64,000 nt of DNA. Origin: Halodesulfovibrio aestuarii DSM 17919 = ATCC 29578 (GTDB taxonomy: Bacteria; Desulfobacterota; Desulfovibrionia; Desulfovibrionales; Desulfovibrionaceae). This document shows positions 7,390 to 34,994 of the stretch, one piece after another. The notes under the pieces are model-generated. The model did no database searches. It was not told the DNA's origin and saw only the letters and a list, made by a program, of their open reading frames with translations. Within the stretch, counting starts at the first letter, position 1. Each line of letters opens with the position of its first letter. The translations under genes and the position numbers were made by a program. The DNA is taken from assembly GCF_000384815.1 (NCBI RefSeq), contig NZ_ARQF01000021.1, positions 62,001 through 126,000 on the forward strand, written 5' to 3'.

Positions 7390-7483
7390 TGGCGGAAGCG
7401 TATAGGAGTCGAACCTACCTAGGACATCACTGCCCTACACCGGTTTTGAAGACCGGACGCCACACCGGTGACGAAACGCTTCC
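7390..7483 (-). tRNA. selC: tRNA-Sec (anticodon TCA)
   Basis: Read on the minus strand, an 8-bp acceptor stem (GGAAGCGT/ACGCTTCC) encloses a long D arm, an anticodon loop CTTCAAA carrying TCA inside a CCGGT/ACCGG stem, a long variable arm and a T arm with GGTTCGACTCC. Discriminator G and an encoded CCA follow. The 94-base length, 8-bp acceptor and TCA anticodon are diagnostic of bacterial selenocysteine tRNA, and the arrangement closely parallels the E. coli gene. It implies that the organism makes selenoproteins, as is usual for sulfate reducers. selA and selB are not in the window. Confidence 0.97.
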
Positions 7484-34193: not shown

Positions 34194-34463
34194 TCACACA
34201 ATCTGACCGAGAGAGTGAATTAAATTTTTTCTAAGCGCTCTATGGCGCCATATTTCACGCTCGTCACTGGTCGCGAGATCGCTGCGGAGTTTTGCACGCA
34301 ATTCATCTTTTTGTTCTTGCGTCAGGTGAAGCATTCGTATGTCGCCTAAGAGTTCCAACGGGTCAGTATATTGCGCAGGGGCAGGTTGTACTGAGGAATC
34401 GTGGTAGAGAAACACTATATTTGCTTTTGGTGCTTTTGCAAATTGTGTCAGGAAGGCTAACAT
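34194..34463 (-). CDS. Small protein downstream of a SAM-I riboswitch, unknown function
   Basis: An 89-residue protein. The N-terminal 20 residues are mildly hydrophobic (MLAFLTQF...NIVFLY). The middle is Pro-rich, and a charged helical C-terminal half has LTQEQKDELRAKL and EREIWRHRALRKN. No cysteine is present and no family is recognised. The ATG at 34463 is 7 bases after AAAGGAG, which rules out a TTG six bases further upstream. It is the only gene between the riboswitch terminator (about 90 bases upstream) and a strong downstream terminator, so it is the apparent regulated gene. A role in methionine, SAM or sulfur metabolism is suggested only by this control. Confidence 0.75.
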   Translation of the reverse strand: MLAFLTQFAKAPKANIVFLYHDSSVQPAPAQYTDPLELLGDIRMLHLTQEQKDELRAKLRSDLATSDEREIWRHRALRKNLIHSLGQIV

Positions 34464-34552
34464 GAACAATCTCCTTTTATCCGGAATCCGGAAAGCTATT
34501 AGCAGTATTGTTTAACCGGGCGCGCAATCGCTATAAATCCGCCCGAAGTAAT

Positions 34553-34595
34553 AAAAAAAAGCCTCTCAAATGAGAGGCTGAACGTGTGTACACAG
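34553..34595 (-). terminator. Riboswitch expression platform: terminator and competing antiterminator
   Basis: On the minus strand the terminator hairpin AGCCTCTCA/TGAGAGGCT is followed by T8 (34560-34553). The alternative pairing joins GAGGCTG, which begins in the 3' strand of aptamer helix P1, to CAGCCTC in the terminator's 5' arm. The two structures exclude each other. Ligand binding would hold P1 closed and favour termination. Confidence 0.88.
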
Positions 34596-34702
34596 CCTCA
34601 TGGTTTCCGCGTAACGCGGTTGGCTTAGCACCTTGCACTACTGTGGTAGTACAGGTTGCCGGACAGTCAATGGGCCAATTCCCTCGTGTCCTCTACATGA
34701 GT
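34596..34702 (-). ncRNA. SAM-I (S-box) riboswitch aptamer
   Basis: The minus-strand transcript matches the S-box consensus in order: P1 arm CTCATG, GAGGGA, TGGCCC, GA, CCGGCAACC, a P3 hairpin (GTACTACC/AGTAGTGC region), GGTGCTAAGCC, a P4 hairpin (CCGCG/CGCGG), and the closing P1 arm CATGAG. Family knowledge: this aptamer binds S-adenosylmethionine and usually turns off methionine and SAM genes. Here it precedes an unrecognised 89-residue gene rather than a known met gene. Confidence 0.9.
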
Positions 34703-34711
34703 TATTTACTT

Positions 34712-34739
34712 AGTATGATCTAACTTTGTATAAAGTCAA
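34712..34739 (-). promoter_or_regulatory. Promoter of the SAM-I riboswitch transcript
   Basis: TTGACT (34739-34734) and CATACT (34717-34712) on the minus strand are 16 bases apart. The predicted start near 34705 is a few bases before the first aptamer helix, which fits well. Confidence 0.65.
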
Positions 34740-34994
34740 GCAGGAAATGTGCAAAAATCAATATTGTTATGATTAAAGATAGTTACGTATTAGACATGTA
34801 TCGTGTATTCATAAAAACAGATTGTTATTTTCATAAAGAATAACATTATTGTGTTTTTCGATAAATTGGTAGGAAAACCATAAGTAGTATTTCAACCCTT
34901 GATAAGGTACGAAACATAGATTGTTGTATGAGCAGGTAGTACTCACAATATGTGAGGCTATTTTTGGGTATTTATGTAAGGAGCTAACGCGTAT
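34740..34994. other. AT-rich divergent promoter region upstream of murJ
   Basis: No gene is seen. The murJ ribosome binding site AAGGAG lies at about 34978-34983. Several A/T-rich hexamers could serve as promoters, but none stands out. Confidence 0.45.

Follow-up and report, generated by a model that had tools for sequence, protein, structure and literature searches.

A conserved SAM-I and SAM-II-like tandem leader precedes an unnamed family of small proteins in Halodesulfovibrio aestuarii and other members of its order

What is a SAM-I (S-box) riboswitch doing in front of a lone gene whose small product belongs to no known family, rather than before a met, cys or SAM gene? This question is raised by a locus on the minus strand of a 64,000-nt stretch of the Halodesulfovibrio aestuarii DSM 17919 genome (hereafter the window), and all features of the locus given below lie on that strand.

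The original prediction, made from the DNA letters, had described a complete S-box aptamer at this locus, and the covariance-model check that it proposed was run. RF00162 matched positions 34703-34595 over the full length of the model (1-108) with 62.3 bits, against a gathering threshold of 44.4 (E 4.6e-12 for the window), and this was the sole RF00162 copy found in the 3.55-Mb genome. The expression platform was also found as described, with terminator and antiterminator sharing the 3' strand of P1, as in known SAM-I riboswitches. The intrinsic terminator (34579-34553) consists of an 8-bp stem (34579-34560) and a T8 run (34560-34553) whose first T is the last base of the stem, whereas the 7-bp antiterminator (34599-34574) pairs the P1 3' strand GAGGCTG (34599-34593) with CAGCCTC (34580-34574) and overlaps both P1 and the terminator stem. 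Taken each alone, the terminator and antiterminator folds reach -13.8 and -11.7 kcal/mol, respectively, and, by sequence and folding only, the platform is mutually exclusive with P1. Judged by these features, the element at 34703-34595 is a real S-box with terminator and antiterminator, and its family points to SAM as the ligand. As to the promoter, a -35/-10-like pair (TTGACT, 16 nt, CATACT; 34739-34712) is present, matching the consensus at 9 of 12 positions, and a similar pair was seen by eye at the equivalent position in the other five low-GC congeners. As a consensus match only, the site is weak when taken alone, since the 2.2-kb region holds seven such sites versus 4.3 +/- 2.3 in shuffled sequences.

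The association between S-box and small protein was then followed across 348 genomes of the order, using a profile built from 13 homologues of the 89-residue product. Out of 40 matches at E <= 0.01, those at E <= 1.6e-33 were counted as clear carriers, leaving out five partial and weak matches (E 1.9e-4 to 7.4e-3). The protein was thus clear in 35 of the 348 genomes, distributed over three genera: all 10 genomes of the window's genus, 8 of a second genus, and 17 of a third. Named carriers with the same leader include Nitratidesulfovibrio oxamicus and N. liaohensis. Under strict filters, RF00162 scored over threshold in 45 of the 348 genomes, including all 35 carriers. Whether homologues also follow S-boxes was a check set out with the original prediction, and the answer was uniform: 35/35 clear carriers have an S-box on the same strand immediately ahead of the gene (13 read from the sequence, 17/17 by cmscan, and 5 by coordinates). 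In a sample of the phylum, 1 of 395 genomes matched the protein, namely the window's own; this sample bears mainly on other groups, since 17 of the 21 entries listed belong to the same family.

The earlier description of the leader had S-box, terminator, and antiterminator right, but missed a further element located between the S-box terminator and the 89-residue gene, at 34548-34491. When leaders were set side by side, a conserved block emerged that reads P1, GAUUU, 6 to 8 nt, UUGC, P1', an A-rich linker, and GCUAA, consistent with an H-type pseudoknot. The corresponding parts in the window are P1 (34545-34540 with 34522-34517), GAUUU (34539-34535), UUGC (34527-34524), and GCUAA (34503-34499), together with a candidate P2b helix recognised by eye (AGC 34532-34530 with GCU 34496-34494). 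A tandem leader made of a SAM-I riboswitch and this element, which for reasons given below we call SAM-II-like, is conserved before the unnamed small protein family in 34 of the 35 carriers (12/13 in the first set, followed by 17/17 and 5/5). The lone exception, G004, has the S-box and the gene without the second element.

This distribution was obtained by several searches. A pattern search for GATTT..TTGC..GCTAA over 23 S-box loci recovered the motif in 12/13 protein carriers and in one further genome, G022; it was absent from the four metX loci, from the four loci where a panC-like ORF follows, from G075, whose S-box match is weak, and from G004. It was also present in 10/10 named contigs, several of which represent genomes already counted. 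A covariance model of our own, R1, was built from 14 elements, among them that of the window (68 bits). In a search of 99 relatives, 12 matches were obtained at 56-70 bits, all of them R1's own members, and nothing else exceeded 25.7 bits; thus, the element is single-copy and confined to this leader. Seventeen further loci outside R1 scored 56.6-70.1 bits, at least 7 of them (second genus) being identical in the core to an R1 member. The spacers flanking the element vary strongly in length, that up to the start codon from about 20 to 155 nt, and the persistence of the block between such variable spacers indicates that it is kept for itself. Since 40 random 64-kb windows contained the motif with a short P1 four times, little can be concluded from one sequence by itself, and the case rests on conservation.

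The tandem arrangement was also found in a fourth genus (L139-L141, in G287, G286, and G022), before a different ORF of 145-149 residues. The elements of these three genomes are not part of R1, and that of G022 reached 24.1 bits with the model, which is no better than noise elsewhere (25.7 bits in G014, 24.1 in G007), so that it counts by its place. The one ORF tested from this group (L140, G286) matched nothing in Pfam, and BLASTP showed no similarity between its product and the 89-residue protein.

Among the helices of the element, P1 is the one for which covariation could be assessed. In the alignment, 88.8% of the P1 cells are paired and 13 cells are changed on both sides, a number not reached in any of 500 shuffles; the covariation score was 0.211 versus a shuffled mean of 0.069 (0/500 as high) and fell to 0.000-0.058 when the strands were slid, these shuffles ignoring relatedness among the sequences. 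Three pairs are changed on both sides, which was matched in 212/500 shuffles, and the further pair types were matched in 10/500. By simple count, a direct P1 of at least 5 bp can be formed in 31 of 37 elements (26 distinct), and the other six show, by eye, a GUGGG/CCCAC P1 with a mismatch before the loop. P2 (UUGC with GC(U)AA) is invariant across elements and therefore says nothing on covariation. By eye, P2b can be formed by AGC/GCU, GGCC/GGCC, or GAC/GUC, but in a free-register test shuffles did as well in 243/1000.

The layout of the block recalls SAM-II (SAM_alpha, RF00521), with which it shares the H-type pseudoknot, the GAUUU / UUGC / GC-U-AA core, the A-rich L3, and P1. Indeed, RF00521 aligned to the window element over its full length with the core in register, although with 11.4 bits against a gathering threshold of 36 and an E-value (5.2 or 1.3) that is not significant alone. 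Searched with RF00521 under strict filters, the window's genome gave nothing at E <= 1, and none of the genus's 10 genomes gave a match over threshold. According to the accessible text of PMC3764141, L1 and P2 of SAM-II (structure 2QWY) hold 13 invariant bases (U10-12, U20, U21, G22, C23, G42, C43, U44, A45, A46, and A47), and the base triples are G8-C23-G42, U11-U21-A45, and U12-U20-A46. Mapped through the RF00521 alignment, the window element keeps 12 of these 13 bases, A47 being replaced by U; the presence of the bases in GATTT..TTGC..GCTAA is partly by construction, as elements were first picked by that pattern. The element thus differs from SAM-II in its score far below the Rfam threshold, in the replaced A47, in a core lying clear of the Shine-Dalgarno sequence, and in its position behind a SAM-I. 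Because of the 11.4 bits and the change at A47 in the window, it is labelled SAM-II-like and is not filed as a member of SAM-II, with SAM as its putative ligand.

More usual SAM-II elements do exist in the same order, in G072 (41.6 bits) and in G062 (32.7 bits, below 36). Two SAM-II motifs in a row were observed in each of these two genomes (L048, 1516-1665; L047, minus strand); in the G062 doublet, a terminator-like hairpin stands between the motifs and a metK-like ORF behind them, both recognised by eye.

We consider it probable that the two elements act jointly, with transcription termination by the SAM-I switch followed by a translational block at the SAM-II-like element, so that production of the protein would be tied to SAM scarcity. 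The gene would be read, likely from its own promoter, through a leader that contains two aptamer-like structures, each of its own class. The anatomy of the first and the known behaviour of its family argue that bound SAM keeps P1 closed and allows the intrinsic terminator to form. Transcripts escaping this switch would probably be held at translation by the pseudoknot upon putative SAM binding; translational control is suggested by the position of the element ahead of the ribosome-binding site, with no other terminator visible behind it in the window's genus. If both switches act in the same direction, the protein would be produced under SAM scarcity only, and little would leak through otherwise.

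Natural tandems offer a parallel. The available text of a 2022 survey (PMC9481103) lists double SAM-I, double SAM-II, SAM-II/SAM-V, and SAM-II with SAM-I/IV in either order; a SAM-I/SAM-II pair is not among the tandems given there, Table 1 included. Translational control is described in the same text for second-position SAM-V aptamers and some SAM-II. The present leader resembles these tandems in having two SAM aptamer-like structures in a row. In SAM-II/SAM-V, a terminator belongs to the first aptamer and translation is controlled by the second; here, too, the first aptamer carries a terminator, and the second, putatively SAM-binding, would act on translation. The difference lies in the classes, SAM-I in first place with a SAM-II-like element behind it.

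The alternative that survives best, although we regard it as rather unlikely, is that the SAM-I switch alone does the work and that the pseudoknot is a ligand-free structure that stabilises the leader or assists ribosome loading. Three observations speak in its favour: G004 has S-box and gene without the second element; the distance from pseudoknot to start codon spans the wide range given above; and when the pseudoknot arms were modelled as masked or free in 36 leaders (a 37th, without a recognised Shine-Dalgarno, was left out), exposure of the Shine-Dalgarno sequence showed no consistent change. Against it, what is identical across four genera is not helices only, but the loop and core bases of the SAM-II ligand pocket.

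A side observation concerns how the pseudoknot might reach the Shine-Dalgarno sequence. In 16 of the 17 leaders of the third genus (L012, L014, L097, L098, L101-L113), AATGCCC follows right after the pseudoknot core, and the same 16 leaders have a hairpin ahead of the Shine-Dalgarno whose loop, GGGCATT, is complementary to it; L097 has neither. The stems of this hairpin differ, whereas the loop is kept. The pair AATGCCC/GGGCATT may be the missing link from pseudoknot to Shine-Dalgarno in that genus. The arrangement was not found in the window's leader.

A second alternative leaves the tandem in place but changes what its second half senses. The element could descend from SAM-II as a variant pseudoknot aptamer responding, for example, to SAH or another adenosyl sulfur compound, giving the gene two inputs; we judge this unlikely. 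An argument for it lies at A47, which, according to the text available from PMC3764141, contacts the methionine amino and carboxylate groups of SAM; the accessible text of PMC11508383 likewise counts the base taken to match A47 among the ligand sites. This base is replaced in a lineage-specific manner in 14 of the 37 elements, with U or G in six genomes from the window's genus and C in 8/8 of the second genus, and the low RF00521 score points in the same direction. On the other hand, A47 is A in the remaining 23/37 elements, before the same or another gene. U11, U21, and U44 are also kept; this follows from the construction of the first pattern search, but model R1 turned up no diverged copy either. 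In SAM-II, again by the available text of PMC3764141, U11 and U21 contact the sulfur and U44 the adenine.

Within the joint reading of termination and translational block, the controlled product is encoded by an ATG-initiated ORF at 34463-34194, with the Shine-Dalgarno sequence AAAAGGAG (34478-34471) 7 nt upstream of the ATG. A hairpin, AGCCAACGAA..TTCGTTGGCT, followed by a T run was recognised by eye at about 34186-34149, so that the unit looks monocistronic, in agreement with the claim that a single small gene lies before the next terminator. The dN/dS of the ORF between the window and 5 congeners is 0.06-0.10, which marks it as a genuine conserved gene under purifying selection; among the six congeners, 14 of 15 pairs gave 0.03-0.19 (some with saturated dS) and one pair gave no value. 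Across 19 family sequences from three genera, 21 residues are invariant, including W-x-x-R-x-x-R-K-N-x-I-x-S-x-G. That the ORF is a spurious frame or encodes no more than a leader peptide, with a terminated sRNA as the product of the riboswitch, as the short length of the ORF, the lack of a family match, and the hairpin and T run directly behind it might suggest, is extremely improbable and was rejected on the dN/dS values, to which the invariant residues and the good Shine-Dalgarno add.

The product had been said to match no methionine-related family, and nothing convincing was found in Pfam, NCBIfam, PHROGs, or the PDB sequences. The best Pfam match had E 0.11 (12.5 bits versus a cut-off of 22.5), the NCBIfam search gave no match, PHROGs and Pfam searched with the 19 family members gave no E better than 0.04, and a profile search of the PDB sequences with the family gave a best E of 0.15. 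An AlphaFold2 model predicts an all-helical fold; confidence is fair but varies between models (mean pLDDT of 82.4 in the best of five and 75.8 to 53.4 in the others), and a Foldseek comparison of this model with the PDB gave a best E of 3.2. All 19 family members terminate at the same valine, followed by the stop without any tail, which suggests an exposed, functional C-terminus.

The methionine background of these bacteria gives the locus a setting, although it does not reveal what the protein does. HcyBio (PF01837, DUF39) was found in 10/10 genomes of the window's genus, which presumably makes homocysteine by the DUF39 route; D. vulgaris Miyazaki does so with DUF39, a NIL/ferredoxin protein, and COG2122, according to the accessible text of PMC5764234. 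Matches to MetX (TIGR01392) at 459-468 bits, below the cut-off of 500, were obtained in 4 of the 10 genomes, the same four in which that gene is preceded by a second S-box. Only 21-bit partial matches to TIGR01392 were obtained in two genomes, one of them the window's. The only SAM-I found in the window's genome is the one preceding the small protein.

Other S-boxes of the order were noted in passing. The second S-boxes of G003-G006 (L033-L036) lie close before a small ORF that is followed by a metX-like gene, and a simple script, which missed a visible terminator at L116 and misplaced the locus L131, reported no terminator at these loci; this looks like translational control through the leader ORF. 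S-boxes at L023, L024, L029, L031, and L138 precede panC, DUF502, and metK-like genes (named by eye), in what looks like an odd SAM-controlled set including pantothenate synthesis. An S-box lies directly before an ADP-ribosylglycohydrolase gene in G099 (L137; PF03747, 129.7 bits) and, by eye, in G121 (L135 and L136). Elsewhere in the window, a selenocysteine tRNA was detected at 7394-7483 on the minus strand (RF01852, 84.6 bits).

The first half of the leader has a precedent. For Oleidesulfovibrio alaskensis G20, a 2024 paper (PMC11124144) places the genome's single SAM riboswitch ahead of the hypothetical gene RS11395, so that an arrangement of this kind has already been published for a related sulfate reducer. 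The two loci are alike in that the genome's single SAM-I precedes a hypothetical protein, and they differ in that no second aptamer is mentioned in the portion of that paper available. Nothing closer on a SAM-I/SAM-II pair or on SAM-II in Desulfovibrio came from the open-access literature, as far as its accessible text goes: PMC12452182 treats the SAM classes together, and its main text contains no mention of Desulfovibrio; the accessible part of PMC545781 reports S-boxes in Geobacter and Desulfuromonas and not in its two Desulfovibrio genomes; the row for Desulfovibrionales in the table seen from PMC4239095 has one regulon column filled; and the text available of PMC3766115 holds nothing specific.

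Two SAM-sensor-like RNAs in a row suggest that the 89-residue protein is tightly tied to the supply of SAM or methionine, and such double control of one small protein is unusual. From its control alone, we infer that in these sulfate reducers the protein most likely serves as a small helper or as a regulator, either boosting the supply of methionine/SAM or sparing SAM. A more specific version, which we put forward tentatively and as doubtful, is that the tandem of SAM-I and a SAM-II variant, its methionine-contacting base exchanged in two lineages, forms a new, two-step, possibly two-ligand, gate and that the small protein, as the sole SAM-I target in the genome, is a dedicated effector of methionine/SAM homeostasis in bacteria using the DUF39 route. 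If the proposed reading is true, the SAM-I/SAM-II pair would join the natural tandem riboswitches, with a form of SAM-II that the Rfam model misses at threshold, and the small protein family would be a likely missing player in the methionine/SAM control of sulfate reducers, whose homocysteine pathway has only recently been worked out.
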